Source: Hydrogenophaga sp. BPS33 (lineage in GTDB: Bacteria; Pseudomonadota; Gammaproteobacteria; Burkholderiales; Burkholderiaceae_C). Taken from it: a DNA stretch of 64,000 nt. The notes beneath the pieces were generated by a model, which saw only the letters and a list, made by a program, of their open reading frames with translations, did not search any database and was not told the origin of the DNA. The stretch is taken from contig NZ_CP044549.1 of the NCBI RefSeq assembly GCF_009859475.1, positions 4,464,001 to 4,528,000 on the forward strand, given 5' to 3'. The translations under genes and the position numbers were made by a program. Each line of letters starts with the position of its first letter. Within the stretch, counting starts at the first letter, position 1. Below are positions 9,726 through 58,852 of this stretch, one piece after another.

Positions 9726-9913
9726 CGTTCGTCCTTCGTTGAACCAGGCCTCAGCGTGGCGATGCACAGCATACGCATCCTCGGTTCTCTCAAAGAGAAA
9801 GCTGAAAGGCTACCTTAAGCACTTCCAACAATCACGCGCCCTCTTGCTTTGACTTCAGATCCGATCAGAGGTCAGCTTCAATCTAGCGGCAGCCTCGCTA
9901 GACAACATGAGCA

Positions 9914-10246
9914 TCAGTCGAGCGGCGACACACCGTCTACGGCGCGAGCGGCGTCCCCGAGAGTTACGAGGCTGTCAAGCACACATCTTGAATGTGCTTG
10001 GTCATCATCACTCTTCGACTCCATCAACACCCAGTAGGAGAGCCGCCACAGTGCAAGGGTCACAGCTTCCATAAGAGCGGGTGCTGCAGCGAAAACTTCC
10101 GCTGACTTCATGTCGGCAATCTCGGAGGCGACGACCTTGCCACCCTCCGTGGTCACTTCGTACATCCCAGGGTCACGCGATGACTCGCGGACGTAGAGGC
10201 CATACGACAGGTGGCGATGTTCAGCTTTGAGATGGTTTGGCGTCAT
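9914..10246 (-). CDS. Hypothetical protein, 110 aa
   Basis: A small soluble protein that begins MTPNHLKAEHRHLSYGLYVRE. It contains EVTTEGGKVVASEIADMKSAEVFAAAPALMEAVTLAL, a pattern seen in short phage- or plasmid-type hypothetical proteins in which A-A-A-P-x-L-x-E-A recurs. No membrane segment or signal is seen. It is divergent from the GIY-YIG-like gene. Function is unknown; the coding call rests on composition and a plausible family-like motif. Confidence 0.5.
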   Translation of the reverse strand: MTPNHLKAEHRHLSYGLYVRESSRDPGMYEVTTEGGKVVASEIADMKSAEVFAAAPALMEAVTLALWRLSYWVLMESKSDDDQAHSRCVLDSLVTLGDAARAVDGVSPLD

Positions 10247-10386
10247 GGCGATACTCGAGAGGGTTCACACGTACATCTCAAATAGGAATGCGATTTAAAC
10301 GGGTGAGGTGGCTTCAAGACCGGGCCGCCGCATCGTCTTCGACCCACAAGACATCCTCGAGAATTTCACAACCACCTGGCTTCACT

Positions 10387-10917
10387 ATGGAACGCATCAC
10401 CAAGCTGGATCAAGAGCTCACAAACCTCTTCCATGACTTCTCCGCGCTGGCCAAGACCATCGAAATTCCATACATTTGCGACCTGGCGGATGAAGCCAAG
10501 ATTGCATCACTGAGCTATCCGGGAATCTATCGAATTGACGTGTGTTCCACAGGGACAACTCCAGACTTCAAACCATGGGTTGACGAATTTCGCGCTGAGT
10601 GGGAGCACGAGGACTTTCTGAAGAAGTTCACGGCAAACTTCAAGGTCAAGCGCATCGCTCAACACAAGGCGCTTCAGGAGTGGATGCCGCTGTACCTGGG
10701 AAAGTCAAAAAACGTCGGCAAGCGAGTGCTCGAGCACCTGAATCTTCCATTGAATAAGTCCACCTTTGCGCTCAAGATCAAGGCAAGGCCTGAAAGCTCA
10801 AAGCGGAAGTTCCGCCTGCATGCGCTTCACATGCCAGTGGTCAACTACAACGTGCTTGCGATGATGTTGGAGTCTTCCCTCCGGGAGCGATTTCATCCAT
10901 TGGTTGGGAAGCAGTGA
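10387..10917 (+). CDS. GIY-YIG-like domain protein, 176 aa
   Basis: The frame is open further upstream, but the ATG giving MERITKLDQELTNLF starts the protein-like part. A long helical N-half leads into GIYRIDVCSTG, then PLYLGKSKNVGKRVLEHL and STFALKIKAR. That order, and the G-K-S-K-N-V-x-x-R-V-x-x-H-L string, matches the core of GIY-YIG nucleases (GIY strand, YIG-like YLG, Arg and His on the following helix). A C-terminal LESSLRERFHPLVGKQ would carry the metal-binding Glu. A role in DNA cleavage or repair is inference. It stands alone upstream of the iron operon. Confidence 0.6.
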   Translation: MERITKLDQELTNLFHDFSALAKTIEIPYICDLADEAKIASLSYPGIYRIDVCSTGTTPDFKPWVDEFRAEWEHEDFLKKFTANFKVKRIAQHKALQEWMPLYLGKSKNVGKRVLEHLNLPLNKSTFALKIKARPESSKRKFRLHALHMPVVNYNVLAMMLESSLRERFHPLVGKQ

Positions 10918-16607: not shown

Positions 16608-17441
16608 CTATGCGGCCATGGCCAGCCGCTGTTTCGGGGTGATGCCGCCCAAGGCCATGTTTGGGCGCTCATGGTTGTAGCGCCACATCCACTGCGTGGC
16701 GTACTCGCGAACCTCGTCGAGGTCGCTCCAATGGTACTGGGACAGCCACTCGTAGCGCACCGTTCTGTTGAAGCGCTCGACGTAGGCATTCTGTTGGGGC
16801 TTGCCCGGCTGGATGTGCTCGATATGAATGCCTCTGGCACTGGCCCAGTTCAGCAACGTGGCACTGATGTACTCCGGCCCGTTGTCACAGCGAATCACGT
16901 TGGGCCTGCCGCGCCAAGCCATGATCTGCGCCAGGGTGCGGATCACACGCTGCGAGGGCAGCGAGAAGTCCACCTCCATGCCCAGGGCCTCGCGATTGAA
17001 GTCGTCGATCACGTTGAGCAGCCGGATGCTGCGACCGTCCTCCAGTTGGTCGTGCATGAAGTCCATCGACCAGACCTCGTTGCTGTGCTTGGGCACCGTC
17101 AGAGGCTCGGGCTTCTCGCGCACCAGGCGCTTGCGCGGCTTGATGCGAAGGTTGAGCTCCAGCTCCCGGTAAACCCGATACACGCGCTTGTGGTTCCAGG
17201 GCAAGCCGCGCACGTTGCGCAGGTGCAGGAAGCACAGGCCAAAGCCCCAGTTGCGGTTGTTGTCGGTCAAGCGCAGCAGCCATTGGGCGATCTCGTCGTC
17301 CTCAAGGCCGCGACGGGCCTCGTAGCGGTAGCAGGCCTGGCTGATCTGGAATGCCTGACAAGCAGCCCTGATCGACAGCCCGCGCTGGCGCACAGCTTGT
17401 TGTGCCATCTCGCGTCGGCGAGATGGCTTCACCACTTTTTT
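16608..17441 (-). CDS. IS3-family transposase OrfB (DDE integrase domain)
   Basis: This is the catalytic half of the OrfAB transposase, made by -1 frameshifting from orfA. It opens [17 protein letters not shown] with a HTH_21-like segment ([20 protein letters not shown]). The retroviral-integrase core follows with the triad in [10 protein letters not shown] (Asp), [10 protein letters not shown] (Asp) and [11 protein letters not shown] (Glu), then the conserved tail [19 protein letters not shown]. The frame is open further upstream inside orfA but translation is expected to enter at the slippage site. All three acidic residues are intact. Confidence 0.9.
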
Positions 17442-17695
17442 GCGAGTGCCTCCGCCACGACCTCGGCTTTGAGCTTCTCCTCGACATACATCTTGCGCAG
17501 CCGCGCGTTCTCCGCCTCCAGCTCCTTCATGCGCGCCATCAGTGAGGCATCCATGCCGCCGAACTTGGCCCGCCACTTGTAGAACGTCGCCGAGCTGATC
17601 CCCAGCTCTCGGCAAAGCTCAGGCACCGTTAGCCCCGCCTCCGCCCGCTTGAGTGCGTCGATGATCTGGCTGTCGGTAAATCGCGATTTCTTCAT
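17429..17695 (-). CDS. IS3-family transposase OrfA (HTH)
   Basis: This 88-residue DNA-binding half has a helix-turn-helix ([43 protein letters not shown]) followed by a leucine-zipper-like segment ([18 protein letters not shown]), the classic IS3 OrfA layout. It binds the element's terminal repeats. It ends ALAKKW with TGA just after the slippery run. Confidence 0.92.
17435..17441 (-). other. Programmed -1 frameshift site (A_AAA_AAG)
   Basis: On the minus strand the heptamer A-AAA-AAG sits seven codon-positions before the orfA stop and in the right phase to move ribosomes into the orfB frame. This is the standard IS3-family device that limits production of the OrfAB fusion transposase. Confidence 0.8.
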
Positions 17696-18135: not shown

Positions 18136-18723
18136 TCAAGATTGGCGAAGCGCAACCAACGCGGCGACAAAGCCGTTGAACCACCTCATGTCAACTGGCT
18201 TCTGAACAGTGACGGTTTGAGCGGGAAGACCGCCCTGCTCCGTGACTTCTGCTGGCGACAGACCGGTCATTGCCACCAGGACCATGGAAGAGAAACTGGC
18301 GTTCGCACGCAGCGTGCGCAACAACTCGAACCCGTCTACGCCCGGCATGTTCAGATCCGTGATAAGCACGTCCGGCTTGAGCGTGTTGATGTCAATCAAA
18401 GCCTCCATGGCGGAGGACATCAGCGAGACGTCGATAGGCAACGTCCAGCTGTCGATCGTCGACTTGAACATCTCCAAAGTGGCAGGGTCATCCTCCACCA
18501 CCAGGACTTTAAGAAACTTAGCCTTTTCGGCAGTTTCCGCCAATCCATGTTTTCGCTGGTACTTGCGGATGGACTCCATCGAAATTCGACGGTGGCCACC
18601 CTTCGTCTTCCAAGCGGTCAGCTCATTTTTCTCGACCAGTGCTTGGATAGTCCCGACTGAGAGCCCAAGCAGCTTGGCTGCAAAAAAAGTCCCGCAGTAG
18701 TCTTCAGGAGTAGTCGCATTCAT
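18136..18723 (-). CDS. Response regulator with N-terminal excisionase-type HTH
   Basis: The 195 residues have the reverse of the usual order. Residues ~10-60 form a MerR/excisionase-type HTH (GTFFAAKLLGLSVGTIQALVEKNELTAWKTKGGHRRI). Residues ~71-195 form a receiver domain with acidic pocket VVEDD, phospho-acceptor Asp123 (VLITDLNMPG), a Thr at ~156 and Lys in TVQKPVD. I therefore expect a phosphorylation-controlled DNA-binding protein. No cognate kinase is adjacent; the hybrid kinase about 5 kb away is the nearest intact candidate. It is divergent from an AT-rich promoter region with the unknown 132-residue gene on the other side. Confidence 0.85.
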   Translation of the reverse strand: MNATTPEDYCGTFFAAKLLGLSVGTIQALVEKNELTAWKTKGGHRRISMESIRKYQRKHGLAETAEKAKFLKVLVVEDDPATLEMFKSTIDSWTLPIDVSLMSSAMEALIDINTLKPDVLITDLNMPGVDGFELLRTLRANASFSSMVLVAMTGLSPAEVTEQGGLPAQTVTVQKPVDMRWFNGFVAALVALRQS

Positions 18724-18993: not shown

Positions 18994-19392
18994 ATGAGAC
19001 TTCCAGCCATCAAAACCACTGCCGACTCGATAAAGGAATTCTTCGGTACCCGCGGCAATTTGGATGCGCCCGGTGTGACCTCTCCCGCGCTTGTAATGCT
19101 TGAGTTTTATAATATCGAGCCAACGGGACAACTGTTGATGGTTTGCGAGACCTCGCCGCTGGCCGCCGGAGATTGGATAAGAATCGACGATCTGGAGTTT
19201 TCGGTGGACGAGCAGTTGTCGCAAGATGAAGTAGCCCAGTGCATTTTTGTCGTCTCGGGCGGAGCCCTCGACGAGGTTGCTGCAGTCGGCGAAACCGCCA
19301 ACTATCAGGTGTATTACAGCGAAGAACTGAAGGGCAAGCTAGGGCTCGTACCTAAACGGATGACCTTAAACAATGATATTTATCATGCCTAG
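18994..19392 (+). CDS. Unknown protein, 132 aa
   Basis: A soluble, mildly acidic protein with no signal or membrane segment. It begins MRLPAIKTTADSIKEFFGTRG and has a beta-rich middle (PALVMLEFYNIEPTGQLLMVCETSPLAAGDWIRIDDLEFSV). It ends KRMTLNNDIYHA. I do not recognise the family. An AT-rich region with a TTGACA box lies upstream. It overlaps the start of the following small membrane-protein gene by 8 nt, so the two are one operon. Confidence 0.6.
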   Translation: MRLPAIKTTADSIKEFFGTRGNLDAPGVTSPALVMLEFYNIEPTGQLLMVCETSPLAAGDWIRIDDLEFSVDEQLSQDEVAQCIFVVSGGALDEVAAVGETANYQVYYSEELKGKLGLVPKRMTLNNDIYHA

Positions 19393-20707: not shown

Positions 20708-21520
20708 TCAGAGCCAGCGACCCACTTTTGAGAGGTTGTGCCAGGCCAGTGCTTTCCAGCCACCCACGCGAGCGCTCCGTAGCGATCTCAATTCCTCTAT
20801 GGGTATCCGCAGCGCGTTGGGCAGTTGCCGGACTTCAGGAAACACCAGCCTTTGCCGCACCACTGGCCGCTCCAAATACACCGCTTTGAAAAACTGATGT
20901 GAAAACAAGCGCAGCGAAGCGTCGTAATCTGCAGCCAGTTTAAGCTCAGGCGCAAAACCCCCAATACGTCTATACCAAGACCTTCGAACGAAGAGCGCGG
21001 TCGTCGGAGGAACCAGTCCAAGTGACAGCCGCTCGCGACTACATGCACCAACATTGTGATGTCTGACCACGTGCCTGGCATCTTGGGCATCTACGCAGAG
21101 GATGTCACCGTATACAGCAGACACCCACGGATTAGCAAACGCTTGAGCCACTCTTTCAAGCACATCTGGACTTGCCAACTCGTCAGCGGCATCGACAAAG
21201 CCCAGTACGTCCCCGGTTGCCTGCCCTATGCCCCTGTTCCATGCCTCGAAGCGTGTTTCACCAACACCACCATAAACAATACTGAGCCGGTCGCGCTGGG
21301 CGTAGATTAGTTCGGGAGAATCGTCCTTGCTATGGCGGTCAACCACCACATGCTCAACATTGCGAAATGTTTGCCCTGCTACCGACGACAGACAGCCTTC
21401 TATCGTTGATGCGTTGTCTCTGCACCCAGTAACGATGCTGATTTTCAAAGAAGGGGCGGTCTCCAAGACGCACGTTTCGTCCGGTATGTGGAGGGCAAGA
21501 TCGAGTTGTCCCAGAGTCAT
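20708..21520 (-). CDS. GT2-fold glycosyltransferase-like protein with altered catalytic motifs
   Basis: This 270-residue protein follows the WcaE-like GT2 pattern throughout: LKISIVTGCRDNASTIEGCLSS, QTFRNVEHVVVD (Asp61), NRGIGQATGDVLGF, VSAVYGDILCVD, then RRIGGFAPELKLAADYDASL. At the active site it departs from the family. The usual DGGSTDGT is DRHSKDDS. The usual PDxGIYDAMNKG is GETRFEAWNRG. The N-A-D-D metal motif is DAAD (110-113). Donor-sugar or metal binding is therefore doubtful. It may be a weak enzyme with a different donor or a pseudoenzyme. It overlaps the upstream epimerase-like gene by 4 nt (ATGA). Confidence 0.8.
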   Translation of the reverse strand: MTLGQLDLALHIPDETCVLETAPSLKISIVTGCRDNASTIEGCLSSVAGQTFRNVEHVVVDRHSKDDSPELIYAQRDRLSIVYGGVGETRFEAWNRGIGQATGDVLGFVDAADELASPDVLERVAQAFANPWVSAVYGDILCVDAQDARHVVRHHNVGACSRERLSLGLVPPTTALFVRRSWYRRIGGFAPELKLAADYDASLRLFSHQFFKAVYLERPVVRQRLVFPEVRQLPNALRIPIEELRSLRSARVGGWKALAWHNLSKVGRWL

Positions 21521-22509
21521 GATGCCGCCGCCAGTCTTTGCTCCTGCTGCCTATAGTCTCGGTACATGTGCGCAAGTCCCGTCTCGAGTTCTATCTGCGG
21601 TGCCCAGCCCGTACTACGCATGCGATGCGTGTCCAGGTAGAAGTCTGCGCCCTCATCAGCGACGTCACCATCGACATTCAAGCATCCCCTATATCCCACA
21701 ACCTTCGCCACGGCCTGAGCAAGTTCCAAGGTCGTGCTTGCCCGGCCACTGCCCAGATTGACGTGCGGTCGACGCTCATCCGTGAGGAGACGGTACGAGC
21801 GATCGGGAAGGTCGAGAAGCCCAATGCACGCCTCAGCCATATCGTCAACATAGAGCCAGTCGGCCCGTCTGAACCCATTGCATCGAAGGTTCACCGACGA
21901 GAGTTTGAACGTCTTCGCTTGGTGGATGTGGCGCATCAGTGTCAAGAGCTCCCCAGCCGTCGATGGCTGCAAGTCATCACCTGGTCCATAGAGGTTTCCC
22001 ACCACGACTGACCGATAGGTCAGGCCAAGGAGTTCACCAAACTCATGCGTGTAGGCCTCACAAAGCCGAATTCCAGCCATGTGCGCAATCGCCAGCGGTT
22101 CGCGTGCACGGTCAGGACGCGCAAAGGCCAGGTCTTCCTCCGCCATCGGCAGCACAGGACATCCCCCGTAGACTTGATGCGAGGCGATGAAAAGAAGCTT
22201 TCGCACACCGGCATACATGGCCTCGTGGATCAGCTGAACCGGCCCCAAAAGCGCGTCCCCCATGTAGGTACCTCGCCGTGAGCTGTTATCGCTTGGATTT
22301 CCCCAGGGCCCAACTGCAACGTAGATGTGGTCTGGCGTCGAATCACGCAGGTAGGAGCGCACGGCGGCTTGGTCATACAGGCTGTGATCAGACTCATCCC
22401 ACGTGTCAATCTGGTCGGCCACAAAGCCACTGGCCATCAGGCGTCTCACAATCGCCTGGCGTGCCGCACTGGCAGGACCGGCCACAAATACTTTGCGAAT
22501 GGCATTCAT
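21517..22509 (-). CDS. GDP-fucose-synthase-like SDR protein lacking the catalytic Tyr/Lys
   Basis: This 330-residue protein aligns along its whole length with GDP-L-fucose synthase (Fcl/WcaG): GVRKLLFIAS, LPMAEEDL, IRLCEAYTHEFG, YRSVVVGNLYGPGDD, DWLYVDDMAEACIGLL, HVNLGSG and LAQAVAKVVGYRG. The key residues are gone. The Y-x-x-x-K of EPYAIAKIAG is EPLAIAHMAG here (Leu139, His143). The glycine-rich NADP loop is VAGPASAARQAI. The catalytic S-S-C region reads ASHQVYG, and the His that follows the NLYGP motif is replaced by Gly. It is hard to see such a protein epimerising or reducing a sugar, so it is better read as a pseudoenzyme. It is the middle gene of a three-gene operon. Confidence 0.85.
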   Translation of the reverse strand: MNAIRKVFVAGPASAARQAIVRRLMASGFVADQIDTWDESDHSLYDQAAVRSYLRDSTPDHIYVAVGPWGNPSDNSSRRGTYMGDALLGPVQLIHEAMYAGVRKLLFIASHQVYGGCPVLPMAEEDLAFARPDRAREPLAIAHMAGIRLCEAYTHEFGELLGLTYRSVVVGNLYGPGDDLQPSTAGELLTLMRHIHQAKTFKLSSVNLRCNGFRRADWLYVDDMAEACIGLLDLPDRSYRLLTDERRPHVNLGSGRASTTLELAQAVAKVVGYRGCLNVDGDVADEGADFYLDTHRMRSTGWAPQIELETGLAHMYRDYRQQEQRLAAAS

Positions 22510-22526
22510 GATGTTCTACACAAGAG

Positions 22527-23306
22527 TCAATGGCGACGCTCTTGAAACGCGAGAGGGGGAGTCAACTGGATCCCGACGCTACGCTGCACCTCACCGTACC
22601 AGTCAAGTGCTGCATGCAGCGATTTGGCATCGAAGGCCGGCCAATGAAGGTCCGTGAAATACAAGGCCGTCTTTCTCGTTTCCCACAGCATGGTGCGATG
22701 CACGGGCATGTGTCCCCCAGTGCGAATCACGAAGTCCGGAGCGCTGTCCAGCATCACTCGGGCTGCATCTGCGACCTGCGAGTCGTCCGGCGTCCCATTT
22801 AGGCCTAGCGATGGCTTGGGGTCCACAAGACCGTTGATGGCCACAATCAACTGCATGCCCTTGTTCAAATTCGTACGCCGTGCGACGTGGTTCAACAAGC
22901 CTCGAGTGATGGCATCCAACCCGTCCAACGCGCCCTCAATTTGCAGCCGCACGTCGTTGCGGTGGAGGTTTTGGGCCCCAGCGGTGATGTAACGCATGAA
23001 CGAGCCAAATGCATCACCTTGACCTCCCTGGGGTAGAAGCAAGAGGTCATCAGTGAAGACGCACAAGGTGACCTTCTTTATTGACCACATGGCGCAAAAG
23101 TCGATCAGTTCGAGGATGCGCCCCGCTCCTGCGTTCACCGCATCTGAATAAGAGAGCGAATGGTCATGAGCCCATTGCCTATGTCCCTGAAGAACAATGG
23201 TGAGATGCTCTGGCTTGCGCTCATATTCCTCGCTTACGGCTGCGTTACTGTGCAATCGCATTGGTACCGTCGCAGGCAACGCAGGTACACGTTCTTCTCT
23301 CACCAT
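22527..23306 (-). CDS. UppS-like (cis-prenyltransferase fold) protein lacking all catalytic residues
   Basis: This 259-residue protein matches undecaprenyl diphosphate synthase from end to end: HLTIVLQGHRQWAHDH, LHRNDVRLQIEG, DFVIRTGG and ALYFTDLHWPAFD. The catalytic signature M-D-G-N-G-R-W is L-Q-G-H-R-Q-W, with Gln40 in place of the essential Asp. F-S-S-E-N-W-x-R-P is FTDDLLLLP. R-T-G-G-E-x-R-x-S is RTGGHMPVH, and the late Mg-binding Glu is Ala215. Diphosphate binding and catalysis look impossible. A ~33-residue N-terminal extension precedes the fold. The start ATG has GGAGG 6 nt upstream. It is first in the operon with the Fcl-like and GT2-like genes. Confidence 0.88.
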   Translation of the reverse strand: MVREERVPALPATVPMRLHSNAAVSEEYERKPEHLTIVLQGHRQWAHDHSLSYSDAVNAGAGRILELIDFCAMWSIKKVTLCVFTDDLLLLPQGGQGDAFGSFMRYITAGAQNLHRNDVRLQIEGALDGLDAITRGLLNHVARRTNLNKGMQLIVAINGLVDPKPSLGLNGTPDDSQVADAARVMLDSAPDFVIRTGGHMPVHRTMLWETRKTALYFTDLHWPAFDAKSLHAALDWYGEVQRSVGIQLTPPLAFQERRH

Positions 23307-23532: not shown

Positions 23533-25647
23533 TCACGTGCCGCCGACCGTGCCGCTGCCCAGTTGGCCGATCAGCGCGGCGATTTCTGCCTCGAGCAAGG
23601 GGAACGCTCTGGCAAACAGCCCCCACTCGCCTGCATGCCTCGCCATTTCGAGACCGCGGCAAATGCGCAAGACCCGCTCCGCTCTCAGCGCAGAGAGAGC
23701 CTCCACTAGAGCCTCGAGCTCCAGTTGCGCAGCAGTCGGATCGCGTCGAGCAAGTGCGCTCTGAAGACTCTTCGTTTTTCTTTCGAGTGTTTGTTGGATG
23801 TGTGCGTTGCGTTTTCGCGTTGAGGCCGGATAAATTGCGTGCCCCTCTGAAGGTTGCGTGTCGCGCACCTCACCCGAGGCGCGGGTTTCAAGGGCCTTCG
23901 ACATGGTTTGAAATAGCCTCGGAAAATCCACAGGTTTAGATACATATCCCGACATGCCAGCAGCTAGGTAAGCTTCTTGGTCGCCGGCCATGGCGTTTGC
24001 GGTGACCGCAAGGATCGGCACGGGCGGACGTTGCATGCGACGTTCAAGCTCCCGAATCCGTGCGGTCGCTTCGAGCCCACTCACCCCGGGCATCTGCACA
24101 TCCATCAGCACCAGGTCAGCGGTCCACTCGCGCCACTGCTTGATTGCCTCATCCCCGTTTCTTGCAACACGCACTTCGCAGCCAATCTGCCTGAGGGCAT
24201 CGCGCATCAGCCGCACATTGACAGTGTTGTCTTCAGCCACTATCACACGAATGTTTTCGAACCTTCTGTCTGTGAGAACGTCCGCCTTTGCCACAGTCTG
24301 TGGCGCCATTTTCTGGTCGCTCTTTGGGAGCGATATATCCTTGACTGGAAGTTCTACTTCGAACTTGCAACCTTGACCAAGAGAGCTTTCAAGCCGAATG
24401 CGCCCTCCCATCGCCTTGACGAGCGTGGCGCAAATGGCTAGGCCCAAGCCGCTCCCTCCGTGCTGGCGTGCAGTGGAACTGTCGGCCTGAGTAAACGCTT
24501 CAAACATGGCCTTATGTTGCTCGGGTGCGATGCCAATACCGCTGTCAGCAACCTTAAAGATCAGCCTCTTTACCAGGCCTGCTTCACGAGATGCATCGAC
24601 CGAGAGAGAAATCTGCCCACCTGCTGGGGTGAACTTCACTGCGTTGGACAGCAAGTTCGTCAGCACTTGGCGAATCCTCAAGGGGTCTCCCAACATAGAG
24701 GACGGAAGTTCGGGCGACATGTAGACTTTCATGTCCACCGACTTGAGCCGTGCCTGCTCCAAATATGTCTTAGAGGTACTTTCGAAGAGCGGCCTGAGGG
24801 GGAAGGCAATGTTTTCGAGGTGTAGCTTCCCGGCCTCAATGCGTGCGAAGTCCAAAACATCGTTGAGCAGGTTCAACAGCACGCGCGACGAGTCATCCAT
24901 CAATTGAAGCCATTGCCGATGCTCGTTGCTCTGCTGGGATCCCAGCAGCAACTGATTGAGCCCCATGATGGCATTGAGAGGAGTACGAATCTCGTGGCTT
25001 ATGTTGGCAAGAAACTCGCTCTTGGCTCGACTGGCCTGCTCTGCCATAAGCAGCGCTTGGGTAGCCTTCTCCTCGATTTGCTTACGCTTGGTGATGTTGG
25101 CCTGGGTACCCATCAGGCGAGTCACTCGACCCCGCAAGTCAACTTCGGCCACCATCGCATGCGCTTCAAGCCAGACCCATTCTTCTCCGGCTTTGAATCG
25201 GTACTCCACTGAAGTACGCTGAACCTCTCCATCGAGCACTCGACGAAGCTGTCTCCTCAGCCCATCCAACTCTTCTGGATGCAGTCGTTCGACCAAATCT
25301 GCCGCACGCCAATTGCCTTCCAATGCAATGTCTCCCAACAACTCTCCCCATCGAGCAGAAAGGTAGACATCGGTAAATGGATATCGGCAGTCCCATAACG
25401 CTAGGCCAGCGGCATCCAAGGCAAGTTGTAAGCGCTCCTGAGACTCTCCGAGCGCTACCTCCGCTTGCAGCCGGCTATCGGTCTCAAGGGTTGCAGAACT
25501 CTTCACACGCGAGAGTTCACTCTGTGTGCGGTTCAATTCTGCGAGCAATTCAACCGAGCGTTTTCTCTCAGCTAGGACTTCCAAGTTGGCCCGTTGTAGG
25601 TCACGTGCCAAGCGATGGGGAGAGTTGGCGTCACTGTCTCGGTTCAT
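23533..25647 (-). CDS. Hybrid sensor histidine kinase (coiled coil-PAS-HisKA-HATPase-REC-pseudo-Hpt)
   Basis: About 704 residues from the chosen ATG ([15 protein letters not shown]); open frame extends ~44 codons further, so the start is uncertain. A coiled coil ([17 protein letters not shown]) leads to a PAS domain ([15 protein letters not shown]...NITKRKQ). HisKA ([18 protein letters not shown]), an HATPase (N box [12 protein letters not shown] boxes [10 protein letters not shown] and GGSGLGLAI) and a receiver with Asp in [10 protein letters not shown] follow. The C-terminal ~80 residues look like an Hpt bundle, but the A-H-x-L-K-G site reads LEALVEAL, so no histidine is present. It is cytoplasmic, with no membrane helix. 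It lies upstream of the pseudoenzyme operon, same strand. Confidence 0.88.
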
Positions 25648-26302
25648 AGATCTAGCAAAGTCACAACCAAGGCTGTGCTCACAATCAGTCATAAACAGTA
25701 CATCACGCCCCCGACCCAAGAACCCCAAGCCAGGTTGTTTTGTGCAGTGACATGCCCGAACGCGACAAAGACTTGGCAATTGAAGGAAAACGACGCTCGT
25801 ACCACGTCGTCACATCTTGTTCGGCCCATTGAAGCCAAGTGCGGCTTCACTGAAACCGCCGCTACGCAGAAGTCAGAGTGTCAGAAGACTTGCAAACACC
25901 TAAGACATCAACTTATAGAGGCGGTACATCCACAGGGATGGTATTCCGCAAAACTGACATTGGCAAACACAAAGTGATACAAATGTGAGTTTATTCACAA
26001 GTATCACTTAAAATGACAATTCGGCAATTTCTGTGAGAATCGTGTCAATGGCAAGAGTGGCTTAGTCAGCCTGCACGAGTGCAAACAATCGCATGCAGCG
26101 TGAAAGCCAGATACCAACGGTCGTGCAGGGGCACCCTTAGCCTGTACTACGATTGAAGCGTGCCGCTCAGGCAACCGGCGAAGTCGTTGCCAAATTCTTG
26201 CCTTGAGGTATATCGACATGCGCGCACCGTTTTTAACATTTTGTTAACACTCTGTGGTGCGCGTAAGGAGCGAAAGTGACTTTCCCCCGTGAAATCATTG
26301 AC
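25648..26302. other. Intergenic region upstream of the hybrid kinase with two strong inverted repeats
   Basis: No gene is supported here. At 25972-26009, AAGTGATAC and GTATCACTT form a 9+9 inverted repeat whose loop holds a further GTGA...TCAC pair, as in a nested operator. At 26221-26262, CGCGCACC and GGTGCGCG enclose TTAACATTTTGTTAA. Both sit upstream of the hybrid kinase gene (about 325-575 bases from its chosen start) and left of the TnpB element. Either could be a regulatory site; neither has the T-run of a terminator. Confidence 0.5.
25972..26009. repeat. Nested inverted repeat (possible operator)
   Basis: The outer arms AAGTGATAC and GTATCACTT are exact complements separated by 20 nt. 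The inner arms GTGA and TCAC are nested symmetrically. The dyad lies upstream of the hybrid kinase, where a dimeric or tetrameric regulator could bind. Confidence 0.5.
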
Positions 26303-27616
26303 TTGACATCCTCCCCGTCCTAAAGGACGGGGATTCCCACAACTGGACGGTCATGCCCGACCGCGCACAGGCCTGAAAGCCCATGCTCATTCACGACGGG
26401 TTCCTCGGCTCTCGCCTCCCCCGCCGTGGAAAATTCGTTCTCCAGCCAAGCCAACCCTCGCGCTCGAATCACGAGCGCGCTGTTCACGTCTCGGTGGTGG
26501 TGCGCGCCACAGGCGCTGCACTCCCAGCTGCGTTCGCTTAGGCCTGCCAGGCCCTTCGGTCCGGTGCGCGCGCCACAGGCGCTGCACTCCTGGGTGGAGA
26601 ACTTCTCGTCAACCTCCTTGAACCACACGCCTGCGTCATCGCACTTGTACTGCAGCATGGTTCGAAACTCGCTCCACCCGGCGTCCAGGACGGACTTGGC
26701 CGGGTGAGCGCCTGGGCGTTGACGTTGCCCACGAAGACCGCTTGGTGCGTGCGCACCAGATCGGTCGAGAGTTTGTGCAGGTGGTCCTTCCTGCGGTTCG
26801 AAATTTTGACGTTGATAGCTCTCACGCGGCACTTGCGGCCGGCGCGTTGCGCTACCGCCAGCCGGGGCTCCAGGCCGCGATAGAAGCCTTGTGCCGGTAC
26901 GAACTCGCCTTCGCTGGTGGTCAGCAGGTCTTTCAGCCCCAGGTCGATGCCCACGGCGTCGACCTTCACCTCAGCTGCAGGGCGAAGGAGTGTCTCTTTC
27001 CTCACCTTGACGCAGACGTTGAGATACCAGCGACCGCGGCTGTCTTCGCAGAGGTTGCCCGCGCCGAGCTCGTAGTCGGCCAGGCCGTAGCTGTCCCACA
27101 GGGAGAGCTTCATCCCCTGGAAGGACACCTGGCCGGCCTTGTAGCTCAGCGAGCGGGCCTTGAATGGAATCCAGCCCAGGCTGCGCCTGGTGCCGCGCGA
27201 GACGCGCCAGCGCAGCTTTACGCGCTTGGCGGCCCGGCGCTTCTTGGCGAACTCCTCGGAGACTTCCTGGAACACGGCCGATCCAATGCTCAGGCCCTCC
27301 TTGGAGGCGCCTCGGGTGTACGGGCTGAAGTCGAAGCCGCTCATGAAGCGGCGTTCGCGTTCCCAGACCTTGAACGAAAGCTCGTTGCAGTAGTTCCAGA
27401 CGAAGTTCACGTCAGCCGCCATCGTCAAAAGCGTGGGGGCATGCCTGTCCTTGAGCCGCAGGTGCAGCACGCGCGTGGTGTGCGACGCTTCGGACGAAGG
27501 AAGACAGGAACGTTTGGGCATCCCTGTGTCTAGGCACAGCGTTTAGCCCTCTCCAGAGAAAAGAGTTCACGCCATTCCTCCCGGACCTGAAGGACCGGGT
27601 CTCCTGGCGTTTTGGG
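26303..27616 (-). mobile_element. IS605-type TnpB-only element, copy 1 (defective)
   Basis: Ends were set by comparison with the second copy in this window. On the minus strand both start CCCAAAACGCCAGGA, with a CCGGTCCTTCAGGTCCGG-type hairpin. Both end in a GC hairpin (CCCCGTCC...GGACGGGG here) followed by AGGATGTCAA. There is no TnpA Y1 gene, so it needs a transposase in trans (IS1341-like). The TnpB gene inside carries a 10-bp deletion. Confidence 0.88.
26320..27521 (-). pseudogene. tnpB: TnpB pseudogene, frameshifted by a 10-bp deletion
   Basis: The 5' two-thirds is intact through RuvC-I (GIDLGLKDLLT) and the VGNVNAQALT segment. The frame is then lost and resumes, in another frame, at AKSVLDAGWSEFRTML. 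Compared with the intact copy at 54.4 kb, CTCACCCAGACCAGGATGGC has become CTCACCCGGC around position 26701, a loss of 10 bases. The 3' part still has the two CSACG zinc-ribbon halves and HHRDVNSALVI. As in the other copy, the RuvC-II Glu position reads Gly (VGNVN). Its protein is probably non-functional, though its omega RNA end is intact. Confidence 0.9.
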
Positions 27617-27672: not shown

Positions 27673-29457
27673 TTACATGCCATCTATGCGTTTAACGTAG
27701 CCGTCCCAGTCGTCAAGGTGCTCAACCTCTGCGACGCATCGTTGCAGCACACCTTGCCAGTCCAGAGGCAGCTCGGCGCCGCAAATCACGGCTCTCTCCA
27801 TCTTGTCCACAGGCAGACCATTGCGGATCAGATCTGTGGGAGTGCTCACGATTACAAGAGCCTCCAGTCCGCGATGACGCAGCGCGGCGCGAACGGCGGA
27901 CCACGCCTCCTTGTTTATGCCTTGCAATGACAACCCACCAATGCCGCCCTGTGCGCCACATACCCAGCCTATGGTCGGATCTGCCGAATGCTTTAGCAGG
28001 TCGTCCGTTGCTTTCGCCACCGTCGCCTCCGGCAAGACGACCAGCGTCACGGGAATACGGCCAGGCCGTTCACCCAGCACCGCCTCCGCAATAGTCTCCG
28101 GCGCCCAACCTGCGGCGATGACGGCATCCAAGCCAGGGATTGTGTTGGCCTCAATCAGGCGGCCCCCAGTCAGGCTCGGCGCTCCGCCGATGTCGGTGGT
28201 GATGTAGTCCAACCCGGCCGTGCCTAGACCGAACGCCTGCACCACCGCTTCGGCAAGCTGGCGGACCATCGGGTGCACCTGCGCCGTCACGTCCACGCAG
28301 ACACCGCCGCTGGACAAGTTCGCGTTGCTGCGCAAAGTCACGCGCTGCCCCGCCGCCAGCATCGTCTCAAGCGTCAGCCCCTGGCCAGCCAAGTGCTCTG
28401 CCAGCACCGTGTCGGACGCGATCGTGCGCAGATACCGGCTCTTGACCATATTGGATGACCGCTGCGAGTTAAGCGCCTGCACCAGTTCGCGCAGCGTGCG
28501 CTGGCCATCGCCCACTACGCTCGAAGGCTCCCGGCGGATTGCAGCCATCAGGCGCCCCTCCACGACCATCAGGCGATGGTCGTCCCCGGGGACAAAGGCC
28601 TCCACCATCACGGGGCCCTGGGTGTAGCGACGCGCGTGTGCAAACGCCTTGTGCAGTGAACCCGACGAGGCGATGCCCGCAGTCACCCCCCGACCGCCGC
28701 CTTGATCCATCGGCTTAACCACACAGGGCCATCCAACCACATCGGCCGCAGCCTCCAGTTCGCTGGGCTGACTCACAAGACGGTGCTTGGGCGTTGGCAC
28801 ACCAAGGCTGGTGAACACTGCGTGGCTCAGCACCTTGGACTTCTGCCACTGACTGCCCAGGAAGCCGTCTGTGTTCGACGCCGATTCCATGAACACTCTC
28901 GAGCGAGTGCCCCACCCGTACTGCCAGTAACGGCTACCGTTCACGAAGGGAAGCACTGGCACACCCCGAGCCCGCGCACCCTCCATCAGGATTCGGGCCT
29001 GGTAGTCAGGGTGGTACTTTCGACAGAGTGCCCAAAATCGTTGCAGTGGGACCTCCATCGCCTCGCGCGAAAAGCCCACACCGGGCCGCGCCGCTTCGGC
29101 CAACGCCCGCTGGGCCAGCTCCAGCGCCATCTTGGTCACACCAACGTGATGAAATCCCACCCATAGCCGCGCCCCGCCGGGCACGGCTTGGGCCCCAGCG
29201 TCATGGAGAAAGCCGCGCACTTCGTTGAGAGCACCCAACGCCCAAGCTGCCAGCAGTCTGGCTGCCTCAGTCTCCTCGTCCGTTGCAGGCCCATCCTGAT
29301 TCAGCCATTCGGGCCAAAGCGCACGCAGGCGGGCGCAGCTCGTAGCTAGCGCGCCGGGTGGTAAAGACCGGGAGAAGCGCACCCGCGCTGCAAGCACCGG
29401 TCCCAGCGCGCACACATTCGGCCCGTGAAACACAGCCTCATAGGCAAACTCAAACAC
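27673..29457 (-). CDS. CphA-like ATP-grasp ligase with degenerate Mur-ligase tail
   Basis: About 594 residues from a GTG that overlaps the upstream cphA-like stop by 8 nt; open frame continues upstream, but family similarity starts here (VFHGPNVCALGPVLAARV, compare CphA's GPN motif). An ATP-grasp domain follows: SLGVPTPKHRL, GWPCVVKPMDQGGGRGV, VEAFVPGDDHRLMVVEGRL, NANLSSGGVCVDVT and IEANTIPGLD. The last ~120 residues look like a shortened Mur-ligase domain whose P-loop is gone (LVVLPEATVAKATDDLL where GTNGKST is expected). It probably partners the adjacent full-length CphA-like ligase in making an amide-linked polymer or peptide tag. The product is not known. Confidence 0.8.
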   Translation of the reverse strand: MFEFAYEAVFHGPNVCALGPVLAARVRFSRSLPPGALATSCARLRALWPEWLNQDGPATDEETEAARLLAAWALGALNEVRGFLHDAGAQAVPGGARLWVGFHHVGVTKMALELAQRALAEAARPGVGFSREAMEVPLQRFWALCRKYHPDYQARILMEGARARGVPVLPFVNGSRYWQYGWGTRSRVFMESASNTDGFLGSQWQKSKVLSHAVFTSLGVPTPKHRLVSQPSELEAAADVVGWPCVVKPMDQGGGRGVTAGIASSGSLHKAFAHARRYTQGPVMVEAFVPGDDHRLMVVEGRLMAAIRREPSSVVGDGQRTLRELVQALNSQRSSNMVKSRYLRTIASDTVLAEHLAGQGLTLETMLAAGQRVTLRSNANLSSGGVCVDVTAQVHPMVRQLAEAVVQAFGLGTAGLDYITTDIGGAPSLTGGRLIEANTIPGLDAVIAAGWAPETIAEAVLGERPGRIPVTLVVLPEATVAKATDDLLKHSADPTIGWVCGAQGGIGGLSLQGINKEAWSAVRAALRHRGLEALVIVSTPTDLIRNGLPVDKMERAVICGAELPLDWQGVLQRCVAEVEHLDDWDGYVKRIDGM

Positions 29458-50975: not shown

Positions 50976-51425
50976 TCAGACGCCTTCGGCTGCCCGCCAC
51001 TCGACCTCAGCCTCTACCTGCGCTCCTGAACTGATGGTGATGAAGCGGTAGCTCACCTGCCCCTTGACCTGCGCAGAGGCCGCGATGATCAGCTCGTCGC
51101 AAATCAGGACGCCATCAAATCGACCCTTGACGGTCAGGCTGCTGCAAACAAGATGCCCTTCGATGAATCCGCCTGCACCGACATTGGCACTGTCGACCTT
51201 CACATTTCCAATCACACCGCCTTCAACGTGGAGGACCCCGCTGGAGTCCAAGTCGCCACGCATCACAAGACCTTCACTAATGATGGAAGGCTTCTCGGCA
51301 ACCGGAATAGCTTTAACAGCCTTTGCGCCCCACCCACTCACTGGGGCGGCACTTTGAGCAGCAGGCAATGGCGCAACGCGCACATCAGACGCGTTGTCGG
51401 ACTTAGTTTTTGATCTGCTGAACAT
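50976..51425 (-). CDS. Bactofilin (DUF583) B
   Basis: This 149-residue protein has a ~45-residue disordered N-terminal tail (MFSRSKTKSDNASDVRVAPL...). The bactofilin beta-helix core follows: ISEGLVMRGDLDSSGVLHVE, GGVIGNVKVDSANVGAGGFI, GHLVCSSLTVKGRFDG, LIIAASAQVKGQVSY, ending ISSGAQVEAEVEW. Bactofilins self-assemble into nucleotide-free filaments that recruit cell-wall enzymes and envelope machines. It overlaps the M23 gene by 23 nt and lies directly before tolC, placing cytoskeleton and exporter in one transcript. Confidence 0.92.
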   Translation of the reverse strand: MFSRSKTKSDNASDVRVAPLPAAQSAAPVSGWGAKAVKAIPVAEKPSIISEGLVMRGDLDSSGVLHVEGGVIGNVKVDSANVGAGGFIEGHLVCSSLTVKGRFDGVLICDELIIAASAQVKGQVSYRFITISSGAQVEAEVEWRAAEGV

Positions 51426-52446
51426 AGTTGGCCGTGTGGATTACCCGCAAAGGATCCACCGGGAATCCTCCGACTGAAATTTCAAAATGCAGGTGTTTTC
51501 CCGTTGAGGCACCGGTGTTTCCTACCAGCCCAAGTACGGTAGTGATGTCGACTTCGTCACCCTCGGCGACGTTTATCCGGTCAAGGTGGCCATAGAGGCT
51601 TTCAATGCCGCGGTCATGACGGACCACAACGGTATTCCCGTAGCCACCATTCATTCGCGCCAAGACCACCTTTCCGGCCTTGGTCGGATAAACCCTGTCA
51701 TCGTTATGCGGCACTAGGTCGACACCAGCATGAAATCGCGGCTGCTTGATCAATGGATGGGCGCGCATTCCATACTTGGACGTGATGTCATGACCTCCGA
51801 CAGGAACGCGCGATGGCAAGGCCAACATGACTTCTTTGAGTTCACGATTCTTGGAAGCCTCGTCCGCGAACCGTCCGCTTAGCAACGACCGACTCGACTC
51901 GGTTGGCTCAGGCCCAAATCCACCGACCGCTCCGCTGGATTGAATGAGTGTGATAGTTCGCGCTGTCAGGCCCGATGCGTCCAGGCGCGATTTGAGCCCA
52001 TGATTCTCAGAGGCCAGTCCCTCAGTGGCAATATCCACCAGACTCCGGACCTCGAGATCGCGCTCTCGAATAACACGGGCCAGGTTGAACATGTCATCAT
52101 CATTCATCTCCTGCACTTCGGGAGTTGAAGCGTCAGCTGTTCCCATAAGCAATGCGCTGTAAATCTCGCGATGCGAGTGCTGCAATCGCAACTTTCCATC
52201 ATGTTGGACCCGGGCATACGCAAGCAGAAACAGCAACACAAACAACAGTACTGTGGCCAGGATCAAACCACCTCGAACAGCGTAGCGCTGCCACCGTCCC
52301 GCAATCGCGTAGTAGCGCAGCTCGCCTTCTTGCTCCAGGATGATGCGAACATCAATGAACTCGCGGCGCCACAACGCAAGTGGAATCGCAGGCACACGCA
52401 GAACCCAAGCGGCAGTTGATGCGGTCTTCCGGATCGTATTTAGCAT
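51403..52446 (-). CDS. M23 (LytM) peptidase, membrane-anchored, bactofilin-associated
   Basis: This 347-residue protein has a ~55-residue cytoplasmic N-terminus (residues ~35-55: VRIILEQEGELRYYAIAGRW). One helix at ~58-80 (GGLILATVLLFVLLFLLAY) is followed by a periplasmic coiled coil (DDDMFNLARVIRERDLEVRS). The C-terminal LytM domain has the zinc ligands in RFHAGVDLVPHNDD and the HxH in GKHLHFEISVGG. All catalytic residues look intact, so it should cut peptidoglycan cross-links. M23 proteins beside bactofilins (LmdC-like) control cell shape; here the job is probably to open or pattern the wall for the export machine. Confidence 0.92.
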   Translation of the reverse strand: MLNTIRKTASTAAWVLRVPAIPLALWRREFIDVRIILEQEGELRYYAIAGRWQRYAVRGGLILATVLLFVLLFLLAYARVQHDGKLRLQHSHREIYSALLMGTADASTPEVQEMNDDDMFNLARVIRERDLEVRSLVDIATEGLASENHGLKSRLDASGLTARTITLIQSSGAVGGFGPEPTESSRSLLSGRFADEASKNRELKEVMLALPSRVPVGGHDITSKYGMRAHPLIKQPRFHAGVDLVPHNDDRVYPTKAGKVVLARMNGGYGNTVVVRHDRGIESLYGHLDRINVAEGDEVDITTVLGLVGNTGASTGKHLHFEISVGGFPVDPLRVIHTANYVQQIKN

Positions 52447-52461
52447 CTGGCTCTACCCGAC

Positions 52462-52887
52462 CTACTCAAGCGCCTTCTCACCCTCATTGAGTGAGACAAG
52501 CTTGTCGCCCAACAAGAGCAGTCGATCGTTCAACACAGGGACTTCTTTGGCTTCGGGTTTGCCCTGCCGCAACGCGCCTTGAATGTTTCCACCGCGCTCG
52601 ACTTCGACTTCGCCATACGCCACATGGCCTTGAATGCGACCACTGGCTCGAACAATCAAGTGCCCGGTGACGAGGAGCTCATCGCGAATCTCGCCCTGAA
52701 CGTCAGCCTTGCCAACATGAGTCTTCCCAGCAATCGTGCCGGCAAGGCCCAAGGTCAACTCTTCGGCGTATAGCTCGCCTTGAAAATCGCCATGGATGAC
52801 CGCCCTGCCGGGCACCTTGAGGACACCGCTTATGCTGACGCCCTCGCCGATGACGACGGTGCCCTTTTGATCGTTGCGCTCGCTCAT
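52462..52887 (-). CDS. Bactofilin (DUF583) A
   Basis: About 141 residues from MSERNDQKGTVVIGEGVSI; the frame is open upstream, but this ATG starts the family sequence and the extension is shadow-like. The beta-helix core reads SGVLKVPGRAVIHGDFQGEL, AEELTLGLAGTIAGKTHVG, VQGEIRDELLVTGHLIV and GRIQGHVAYGEVEVERGGNI. A charged helical tail (LNDRLLLLGDKLVSLNEGEK) follows that could contact a partner. It is the first gene of the bactofilin-M23-bactofilin-TolC-ABC-HlyD run, 15 nt before the M23 gene. Confidence 0.92.
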   Translation of the reverse strand: MSERNDQKGTVVIGEGVSISGVLKVPGRAVIHGDFQGELYAEELTLGLAGTIAGKTHVGKADVQGEIRDELLVTGHLIVRASGRIQGHVAYGEVEVERGGNIQGALRQGKPEAKEVPVLNDRLLLLGDKLVSLNEGEKALE

Positions 52888-53072
52888 ACAAACCCGTTGT
52901 TCTTGGAAAAAGGGAGATGGATGCGCTGAGAGCCGTCTTCGCAGAAGACGCCATCCAATGGCGCTATGCGCATCCTTGACAGTAGTACACAAAATGACAA
53001 ATACAGTATAAGCTCAGTTTTGTGATATTTCGCCATCCAATATGACACAACCAGCAAACCAAAGGAGGTTGG

Positions 53073-55718: not shown

Positions 55719-56489
55719 TCACTCGAGCAGGACCACGGCGTCTGACTCCTGCACAAACTCAAATGGCTGAAGGCCGCGGAGAACTTGCTCAACGTTAAGT
55801 CGCTGACGGTGGCAGTATTCAACGATGTGCTCTTGACTCTCGGCTCGACCTCGAGCACTACGCCGAAGCTCGAATGCGTGAATTGCTTCGGCTTCACTCG
55901 GATTGGTCAACAGGTACGGTGTGTTTGGGTGGCTGCAAGAGCGAACGACGAGGAAGGCGTAGGTGAGGCCGCGCTCTGAGGTGTCACCCACCACGATCTG
56001 ACGAGGTCGTGCCCTGTCCCATGCCACCTGCCCATGGCGCAACTGCAATGGGGCAGGAATGACATGGAGTCTGTGTTGCACACTGGCCCTGAACGCATAG
56101 CCCACGGGCGTAGGTGTTTCAAGCACCACTGTAGCCAGAGGCCTCCACCGAGCCACTGATGCAAGGCAGCTCTCAACTGCAGCCATGTCAAAGCGGCCGT
56201 TCTCTGCACGAAAGACAGGTTGCTCCGCAACAATAACCAGATCAGCTCCGGCAAGGGCACGCGCATAGCTGTCAGCAAATTCAATGTTCCTCACAGTACG
56301 CCTCAAGAGCTGGTCCAGCTCTGGCTCGCCTGGATACATCGGCAGTCCCGTCAGTCGCCTGGTGGCACGATAAGCACCCGCCTCGCCCAAGAGCACACGG
56401 TGATGGCGAGACAAACAGATCGCGCTGGCCAAGGCTTTGGGGCCAGCACCCAGCACTGCGACATTGAGACGTGCCAGATTTGGAAGCAT
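55719..56489 (-). CDS. UDP-glucose-dehydrogenase-like protein, truncated, catalytic residues missing
   Basis: This 256-residue protein follows the first two-thirds of Ugd: NVAVLGAGPKALASAICLS, EPELDQLLRRTVRNIEF, GADLVIVAEQP, FDMAAVESCL, VVLETPTPVG, QIVVGDTSER and NPSEAEAIHAFE. The nucleotide loop G-x-G-Y-V-G-L is GAGPKAL. The substrate-site S-P-E-F-L-R-E-G-K reads APLQLRHGQ. The catalytic Lys of E-A-E-A-I-K is His204. The C-terminal part with the catalytic Cys (G-G-x-C-x-P-K-D) does not exist. It cannot be a normal dehydrogenase. It is either a pseudoenzyme or a decaying gene kept open. It lies beside the SCPU-like gene, same strand. Confidence 0.82.
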   Translation of the reverse strand: MLPNLARLNVAVLGAGPKALASAICLSRHHRVLLGEAGAYRATRRLTGLPMYPGEPELDQLLRRTVRNIEFADSYARALAGADLVIVAEQPVFRAENGRFDMAAVESCLASVARWRPLATVVLETPTPVGYAFRASVQHRLHVIPAPLQLRHGQVAWDRARPRQIVVGDTSERGLTYAFLVVRSCSHPNTPYLLTNPSEAEAIHAFELRRSARGRAESQEHIVEYCHRQRLNVEQVLRGLQPFEFVQESDAVVLLE

Positions 56490-57853: not shown

Positions 57854-58852
57854 TCAGCGAGACTTGAAAAATCGAGCCAACCACCCTTTGGGCGTCTTGA
57901 GATTGAGGGAGTGCGTTTTCAAACCCGTGGTCAGCGAAACCTCGTATTGGGGGTAGTGCCCGATGACTTTGAAGGCCGCTGACGCCGGGGCCTGTTTGAC
58001 TGAAGGCGCCTCTTGAACCATGCCATGCCCGCTGTCCGGGACTCCTGCCATGTTCAGATCCGCAGCGCAGATCTCCGCTGGCGGCCGGGTCTCAACGAAT
58101 GACTCAGCTGAGTACAACTGCGGGTGCGACGGCATGAAACCCTTTATAAAGCGTGCCGCGTGATCGGCTCGCGCTCTATGCAAAAGCGGCCGTTCAACAG
58201 TCGGCGGAACAGTCCCCTCAGCACCAACATCTCTGAGCAAATGAGCCAACCAGTCCAACAGCGGCTGCCAATGAAGCAAACGGTCAGGGGACTCTCCATC
58301 TGCTCCATCAAAAACGCTGCTTCCAGTCTCCAAGCATGACCGATACACGGGGTCGTCCGGAATGACCGTCAAGAAAGGCAACGGTTTCGGCACCCCATTG
58401 GACTGCCACACTTGCGCAGTGTCACCAGGCCAGCGCATCCCAACGACTGCCACCTTGCAGCGACCACTTGCCACTCTAGGGTGCTGGCAGAGCTCCCGGA
58501 AAAATTCAACCGAGGTTTCGAGATCGAAGATGGACGGCCCCACCGGCATCACGATCGCGTCCACGCAAGCCAAGAGCTTGGCCAACTCCAAGCCGTGAAT
58601 GCCTCCTGGTGTGTCGACTACGTGCGTAAGGCCCTGAACGGGTCGAAACGTCTTACCGAAGTCGCTGGGCCAACTGGAAATGGTCGCGTCCGCAAGACTG
58701 CGGCGGCCTAACCACGCCTGCGTTGAACGCTGCTTGTCAGTGTTGCCCAGCATGACGCGTCCGCCAGTGCTGGCGCACCAAGCGGCGATATGTGTAGCGA
58801 GGGTGCTCTTCCCGCTACCACCCTTGCGGTTCATGACAGCGATGATCGACAT
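57854..58852 (-). CDS. Orphan ParA/MinD-family ATPase with C-terminal extension
   Basis: The 332 residues have a deviant Walker A KGGSGKST (10-17) and a switch region reading LGNTDKQRSTQAW, where the first D of the usual G-D-x-D is N. Walker B-like HVVDTPGG follows, and later IVMPVGPSIFDLETS and VVGMRWPGDTAQVW. No parB or parS is nearby. A ~110-residue C-terminal extension ends SLNLKTPKGWLARFFKSR, an amphipathic basic helix that may bind membrane. Such orphans position surface machines (BcsQ-like); here it could place the bactofilin/exporter or the pilus. That is inference. Confidence 0.85.
   Translation of the reverse strand: MSIIAVMNRKGGSGKSTLATHIAAWCASTGGRVMLGNTDKQRSTQAWLGRRSLADATISSWPSDFGKTFRPVQGLTHVVDTPGGIHGLELAKLLACVDAIVMPVGPSIFDLETSVEFFRELCQHPRVASGRCKVAVVGMRWPGDTAQVWQSNGVPKPLPFLTVIPDDPVYRSCLETGSSVFDGADGESPDRLLHWQPLLDWLAHLLRDVGAEGTVPPTVERPLLHRARADHAARFIKGFMPSHPQLYSAESFVETRPPAEICAADLNMAGVPDSGHGMVQEAPSVKQAPASAAFKVIGHYPQYEVSLTTGLKTHSLNLKTPKGWLARFFKSR

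Follow-up and report, generated by a model that had tools for sequence, protein, structure and literature searches.

Three papers describe the closest known systems. NgBR/Nus1 has the fold of the cis-prenyltransferase UppS without its catalytic activity and is maintained by selection (PMC7573591). NmrA is a transcriptional regulator of the short-chain dehydrogenase/reductase (SDR) family in which the catalytic Tyr is replaced and which was suggested to be a non-enzyme, is reported to bind NAD and acts on a regulator, and WbmF, of the Bordetella O-antigen, is an SDR that lacks the Ser/Thr of the catalytic triad and was proposed to be an epimerase (both PMC2279256). EcpK is a BY pseudokinase of exopolysaccharide synthesis in Myxococcus that was proposed to be a scaffold (PMC12004946). 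Here we analyze a stretch of 64,000 nucleotides (nt) of Hydrogenophaga sp. BPS33 (contig NZ_CP044549.1, positions 4,464,001 to 4,528,000; hereafter the window), in which three adjacent genes encode homologues of UppS, of the GDP-L-fucose synthase Fcl and of family-2 glycosyltransferases (GT2), here called UppS', Fcl' and GT'.

UppS' resembles NgBR in its fold and in an inactivity that is predicted from sequence, but NgBR is eukaryotic with an RxG tail, whereas the window UppS' is bacterial, lacks RxG and is accompanied by Fcl' and GT' (PMC7573591). Fcl' can be likened to NmrA by fold description, in that both are of SDR fold and have another residue in place of the catalytic Tyr; NmrA is reported to bind NAD, whereas the window Fcl' lacks two Rossmann glycines (PMC2279256). 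Like WbmF, Fcl' is an SDR from a polysaccharide locus with an incomplete triad, although WbmF is without Ser/Thr and Fcl' without Tyr and Lys (PMC2279256). EcpK is likewise a pseudoenzyme within an exopolysaccharide pathway, but it is single and kinase-derived, whereas several sugar-pathway folds, none of them a kinase, occur here (PMC12004946). Among the titles and abstract openings listed by the literature searches (10 of 23 and 10 of 142 matches in two of them, with subscription papers mostly outside the search), none described a co-inherited set of pseudoenzymes that stem from more than one step of a glycan pathway and are tied to a two-component system. Single pseudoenzymes are of an already known kind, and such a set would be new.

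It was found that the three proteins are homologues of glycan-pathway enzymes with catalytic residues lost, that the losses are conserved across whole clades, that Fcl' is under purifying selection, and that the genes are linked to a signaling module consisting of a hybrid histidine kinase and an HTH-REC response regulator. Relatives from other bacteria have lost these residues too, and the trio has therefore probably been retained for a regulatory or structural function.

Loss of catalytic residues in the three proteins

The three genes are as follows.

22527..23306, minus strand, UppS': 259 amino acids (aa), cis-prenyltransferase homologue without the catalytic Asp26
21517..22509, minus strand, Fcl': 330 aa, homologue of GDP-L-fucose synthase that lacks both YxxxK and GxxGxxG
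20708..21520, minus strand, GT': 270 aa, homologue of family-2 glycosyltransferases that lacks the DD pair of DxD

They run head to tail in one direction on the minus strand (20708-23306), with a 17-nt gap between UppS' and Fcl' and a 4-nt overlap between Fcl' and GT', and the three open reading frames (ORFs) are unbroken, with no internal stops. Therefore, the co-directional arrangement and the full-length genes described in an earlier note on this DNA were borne out; its further claim that the catalytic residues are replaced in each protein holds for UppS' and Fcl' and had to be softened for GT'. Every NCBIfam family listed for the trio proteins scores under its cut-off, though the Pfam families pass theirs. 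Relatives of all three were collected by a word-based search of 5.8 billion proteins, and comparisons were also made with a genus sample of 67 genomes and a family sample of 399; the BPS33 genome itself is G000.

UppS' scored 85.3 bits to the cis-prenyltransferase domain PF01255 (cut-off 27) and failed the NCBIfam uppS equivalog cut-off (78.6 vs 109.55 bits). Alignment with Escherichia coli UppS (1jp3) showed the replacements Asp26 to Gln40, Asn28 to His42, Arg200 to Pro201, Ser202 to His203 and Glu213 to Ala214, with Arg194 and Trp31 retained; the numbering of Asp26 is backed by a D26A crystal structure among the structural matches. We take Asn28, Arg200, Ser202 and Glu213 to have ligand roles, Arg200 and Ser202 in the site for isopentenyl diphosphate. 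All 20 UppS' relatives (45-76% identity) have Gln at the Asp26 position. Six sites are fixed (at least 95%) on different residues in UppS' (22 rows) and canonical UppS (11 rows), including Asp26, Asn28, Arg200 and Ser202, and the replacements Gln40, His42, Pro201 and His203 are themselves fixed. A search with UppS' gave 405 bits in G000, 253 in G068 and 177 in G080, against 141 for the next of the genus sample, and in the family sample the own genome alone stood out (405 bits; next 141). Asp26 was kept in 47 of 51 fetched UppS loci, the other four being the window (two loci), G068 and G080, the last with Ser at this position; in the tree, UppS' and the G080 copy formed one clade with support of 100/100. 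The 50 listed Foldseek matches of the UppS' model were, by title, UppS or other cis-prenyltransferases (TMq 0.47-0.56), but the model is of low confidence (pLDDT 64), and therefore no site mapping was based on it.

The own genome also encodes a canonical UppS and a canonical Fcl, as would be expected if UppS' and Fcl' were non-catalytic subunits that pair with the active paralogue (UppS' with UppS, Fcl' with Fcl) and alter its output, as NgBR, the precedent for an inactive cis-prenyltransferase subunit, does for DHDDS (PMC7573591). However, the C-terminal tail of UppS' reads RSVG at the RxG position, RxG being present in 3 of 21 alignment rows (P0017, P0018 and P0020, by eye), and in these searches genomes G080 (96% complete) and G079 (79% complete) contained no match of Fcl strength besides Fcl', hence none with an intact catalytic site. 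An NgBR-type activation is therefore not favored, and we regard it as unlikely.

Fcl' exceeded the cut-off of PF01370 (95.5 bits) and failed that of NCBIfam GDPFucSynFcl (195.1 vs 500 bits). Relative to E. coli GDP-fucose synthase (1e6u), Tyr136 is replaced by Leu139, Lys140 by His143, Cys109 by Gln112 and His179 by Gly; Cys109 and His179 presumably have roles in that enzyme. Ser107 of the Ser-Tyr-Lys triad, the numbering of which is backed by the mutant structures S107A, Y136E and K140R, is retained, leaving the triad incomplete, the NADP motif GxxGxxG reads GxxSxxR with loss of two Rossmann glycines, and the residues aligned to Trp202, Arg209 and Lys283 are also missing. The fold is nevertheless predicted to be kept (pLDDT 86.6; TM 0.87/0.91 to 1e6u). 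Among the best 120 of 2312 matches, 31 relatives have 60-83% identity, after which identity drops to about 38% with canonical Fcl, and neither Tyr nor Lys of YxxxK is kept in any of the 30 that were aligned (P0040 was left out there and is present in the first tree). Thirteen sites are switched between Fcl' (32 rows) and canonical Fcl (90 rows), among them Lys140, which has become His, and Gly16, which has become Arg, and His143 is fixed.

These proteins might instead be neofunctionalised enzymes with new chemistry in rebuilt clefts, but the losses in Fcl' (YxxxK, two Rossmann glycines and the residues aligned to Trp202, Arg209 and Lys283) and in UppS' (Asp26, Arg200, Ser202 and Glu213) include several residues that we take to have ligand roles. 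The fixation of Gln40, His42, Pro201, His203 and His143 would fit such enzymes, as would the finding that a non-standard triad need not abolish the activity of an SDR (PMC2279256); we judge this explanation to be rather improbable. The rebuilt and fixed sites speak for a new binding role over slack.

GT' scored 62.7 bits to the family-2 glycosyltransferase domain PF00535 (cut-off 23.3). Its DxD region reads DAAD where relatives show HADD or NADD (a change of ADD to AAD), and the DKGIYDA loop is lost, whereas VVVD, SxD and AADYD are retained. We take the Asp of AADYD to be the putative base, and the assignment of the metal-binding Asp of DxD is likewise our assumption. In an alignment of 41 rows of the 120 listed, the DD pair occurs in none of the 21 GT' rows, which speaks against a further possibility, that GT' is still a working glycosyltransferase and that UppS' and Fcl' alone are non-catalytic helpers. 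In its favor are the VVVD-type motif and SxD in all 21 rows, a conserved Asp in the ADY motif in 17 of them, and Glu in place of one Asp of the pair in three (P0145, P0153 and P0154). Outside GT', the DD pair is present in five of five of the closest relatives (P0163-P0167), which weighs against counting GT' as a pseudoenzyme, and in nine of nine farther rows; GT' grades into intact GT2s. A working GT' is a minority possibility that we take seriously. GT' is the weakest pseudoenzyme case of the three, appearing eroded, with loss of activity less supported than in UppS' and Fcl'. The remaining six rows (P0168, P0169, P0170, P0173, P0174 and P0175), also without the DD pair, are a second degenerate GT2 set, in which DxD is replaced by GPHD or GPYD and the first Asp by Leu or Tyr.

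Selection on Fcl' and origin of the losses

Between the window Fcl' and that of G068, codon positions 1, 2 and 3 differ at 26, 22 and 56%, and dN was 0.27 and dS 2.49, giving a ratio of about 0.11 that is rough because dS is near saturation. Fcl' is under purifying selection. For UppS', GT' and other pairs, dS was saturated or the pairs were too distant, and infinite dS values were not used. Neutral decay was rejected for Fcl' and is unlikely for UppS' and GT', given the clade-wide losses, the fixed sites and the dN far below dS for Fcl'; in this the earlier note, which had thought random decay unlikely, proved right.

Ordinary pseudogenes that sit in a low-GC island and are not yet broken would account for the G+C at third codon positions (GC3) of the trio, 0.55-0.64 vs 0.94 in the own canonical Fcl, and for the long stems in the UppS' and Fcl' trees. 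Low GC3 is, however, common to the neighboring genes (kinase 0.60, ABC transporter 0.68, M23 peptidase 0.59), the G+C content at 18-26 kb of the window, including the trio, being about 53-56%; the shared loss of Tyr and Lys in 30 Fcl' relatives at 60-83% identity, the absence of stops and a dN well under dS for Fcl' also argue against pseudogenes, which we consider very improbable.

The genus sample gave 39 Fcl matches with E up to 1.5e-37, all of which were checked: four are loci of the signaling module (window, G068, G080 and G079) and 35 are others. The Ser, Cys, Tyr, Lys and His are all kept in 34 of these 35, the exception being a contig-edge fragment with Ser for Tyr (L195, G011). In contrast, both Tyr and Lys are lost in all six Fcl genes in or near the module, from four genomes; these are the four loci just named and two weaker genes called Fcl'2 (own L069 and G068 L065). 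The earlier note's alternative of intact orthologues nearby and a dN/dS near 1 is not what was found for Fcl'. Only the own canonical Fcl among the 35 shares a contig with an HTH-REC gene, 1.66 Mb off on the chromosome.

Independent repeated inactivation of Fcl was left open by the first tree (65/93), but a tree with the Gmd-linked Fcl class as outgroup placed 36 Fcl' in one clade (95/92), and therefore the six module genes are not counted as six loss events. The inner order of the Fcl' tree is unsure, with long branches for G079 and both Fcl'2.

Carriage by mobile elements was also considered. Viral contigs yielded five loci, Fcl relatives at 26-32% identity, and phage cargo was rejected. Plasmid cargo was rejected as well, all plasmid matches being below 60% identity (90 records for UppS' and 378 for Fcl'), with the 20 listed for each at 25-29% for UppS' and 35-36% for Fcl'. 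A genome-contig search gave 32 loci, Fcl relatives 26-36% identical, from which records very near the window were possibly excluded.

Linkage to a kinase and HTH-REC module

The other features of the window are as follows.

23533..25779, minus strand, hybrid histidine kinase (PAS, HisKA, HATPase, REC)
18136..18723, minus strand, HTH_17-REC response regulator by Pfam domains, beyond GT'
18994..19392, plus strand, small ORF without Pfam match; partial homologue near the G080 HTH-REC gene, 52% over 62 aa
46239..50894, minus strand, type I secretion genes (HlyD, ABC, TolC-like); in G010, homologues are flanked by the kinase and HTH-REC genes
50976..51425, minus strand, bactofilin; homologue close to UppS' in G080
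51403..52446, minus strand, M23 peptidase, between the two bactofilin genes
52462..52992, minus strand, bactofilin, second of the bactofilin-M23-bactofilin set
55719..56489, minus strand, Ugd': 256 aa, N-terminal half of UDP-glucose dehydrogenase only
57854..58852, minus strand, ParA/MipZ-like ATPase; in G034 and G010, homologues adjoin the HTH-REC gene

The hybrid kinase gene is on the strand of the trio and ends 226 bp before UppS', and its His, ATP-binding boxes and both receiver Asp look intact by eye. A promoter scan near the operon found 4, too close to the 2.4 expected to be informative. Kinase and HTH-REC genes are on one contig in G000, G068, G080 and G079, and kinase homologues lie near an HTH-REC gene in G080, G010 and G079. 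In G068, Fcl' adjoins an HTH-REC gene 79% identical to that of the window and UppS' adjoins Fcl'2; in G079, the contig that carries Fcl' also has HTH-REC and two kinase matches. A bactofilin-linked M23 gene matching that of the window is present in 3 of 67 genomes (G000, G080 and G034).

Co-occurrence of the trio was evaluated by equal size of the longest contig, by which a match to another trio gene was found for 12 of the 20 relatives of UppS', 15 of the 31 of Fcl' and 14 of the 20 of GT', and four sizes hold relatives of all three. This suggests, indirectly, that UppS', Fcl' and GT' travel together. Two different trios from different sources (P0005/P0028/P0146 and P0019/P0052/P0156) have the same longest contig, 12503, by tandem duplication or coincidence.

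In G080, one strand of locus L103 carries UppS', a WecA-like transferase, a GT2, a truncated Ugd', a NusG-like protein, Fcl', GalE' and an Ugd fragment, followed by an Ugd that looks intact, two SDR epimerases with YxxxK, and flippase-, methyltransferase- and transferase-like genes (by eye). Copies of UppS, Fcl, GalE and Ugd with lost catalytic sites thus lie together in one polysaccharide locus, which abuts a bactofilin-M23-bactofilin set and then a hybrid kinase and HTH-REC, homologous to positions 50976-52992, 23533-25779 and 18136-18723 of the window. The G080 GalE' (L103:9706-10749) has LxxxL for YxxxK and scores 244.6 bits to GalE (cut-off 262.3), whereas YxxxK is kept in the 8 other GalE loci compared, including two further G080 copies. 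The window Ugd', which the earlier note had correctly listed as a fourth eroded enzyme, scores 26.2 bits to PF03721, just under the cut-off of 27, matches NF011631 with E 5.7e-17, and stops before the part that aligns to the second half of full-length Ugd. Separately, an Ugd match in L131 (G085, about 9561-10693) came in two overlapping tblastn pieces, from a frameshift or an assembly error.

The G080 Fcl' has His and Gln at the Tyr and Lys positions and keeps all three Rossmann glycines, and that of G079 keeps two, whereas two are lost in the window. The G080 state, in which the cofactor motif is retained without the catalytic pair, resembles an earlier stage; the window copies have diverged further, and the ligands of the window copies may have changed or gone.

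The six Fcl' genes, GalE' and two Ugd' are the same phenomenon as the trio and are linked to the hybrid kinase and HTH-REC, in two genomes also to bactofilin-M23. Therefore, the three-gene operon of pseudoenzymes in the earlier note was found, but it does not stand alone; its interpretation is partly supported, being upheld in its core, widened to a module and weakened for GT'.

Several other observations were made in the window. Transposase-like ORFs (16608-17695, 26320-27521 and 54363-55574) lie around the island, one IS3-like and two similar IS200/IS605-like by eye, that at 26320-27521 being split across two frames. A 3294-aa ORF at 32920-42804, with no Pfam match at E 1e-5 and near SapC and the type I secretion genes, is perhaps a secreted giant protein. 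Two adjoining ATP-grasp ligase ORFs at 27673-32080, one with Mur-ligase domains, resemble a cyanophycin-synthetase pair.

Proposed role and significance

On balance, our favored explanation counts UppS' and Fcl', and probably GT' as well, as conserved pseudoenzymes that now bind rather than catalyze and that likely couple glycan status to the kinase and HTH-REC regulator. The trio would go back to a surface-polysaccharide locus of the kind that G080 has retained, with catalysis lost in a common ancestor, after which new residues would have been fixed in the old active sites and copies duplicated. We infer the absence of activity, and the proteins would act by binding. Their most likely job would be to inform or assemble, as soluble proteins with a pathway protein or a ligand as their binding partner. 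In this way, the status of the envelope glycan could be coupled to the hybrid kinase and the HTH-REC regulator nearby, the partners and the direction of the signal being putative. Within the same explanation, the partner could alternatively be glycan machinery that is placed with bactofilin and M23. More tentatively, there may be a shadow glycan pathway, in which one lineage's copies of UppS, Fcl, GalE, Ugd and GT2 would be a co-inherited non-catalytic set that reads the real pathway and feeds a hybrid-kinase/HTH-REC phosphorelay positioned with the bactofilin-M23 wall machinery; we consider this possible, but doubtful.

Several findings weigh against the favored explanation. The losses cannot be counted as independent, each family being a single clade, and because substrate- and cofactor-site residues are also lost, the window Fcl' probably does not sense its former ligands as the ancestral enzyme did. 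The HTH-REC gene is present in 9 of 67 genomes, whereas UppS' is in 3, and parts of the module occur without the trio in G010 (kinase, secretion, HTH-REC and ParA) and in G034 (ParA, HTH-REC and bactofilin-M23). The trio is not obligate: G068 has no GT' match at E 1e-30, and its Fcl' is about 18 kb from UppS'. No bactofilin-M23 match was found in G068 or G079. The own Fcl'2 is beside a hybrid kinase with no HTH-REC match in the 17 kb read, and the G068 Fcl'2, beside UppS', has its nearest kinase match about 10 kb away.

Some relatives of the trio are annotated as undecaprenyl diphosphate synthase, GDP-L-fucose synthase or glycosyltransferase, and because they carry the names of working enzymes, genome-based pathway reconstructions can err. 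If the favored explanation is true, these proteins would represent a new bacterial way to monitor or organize envelope synthesis.

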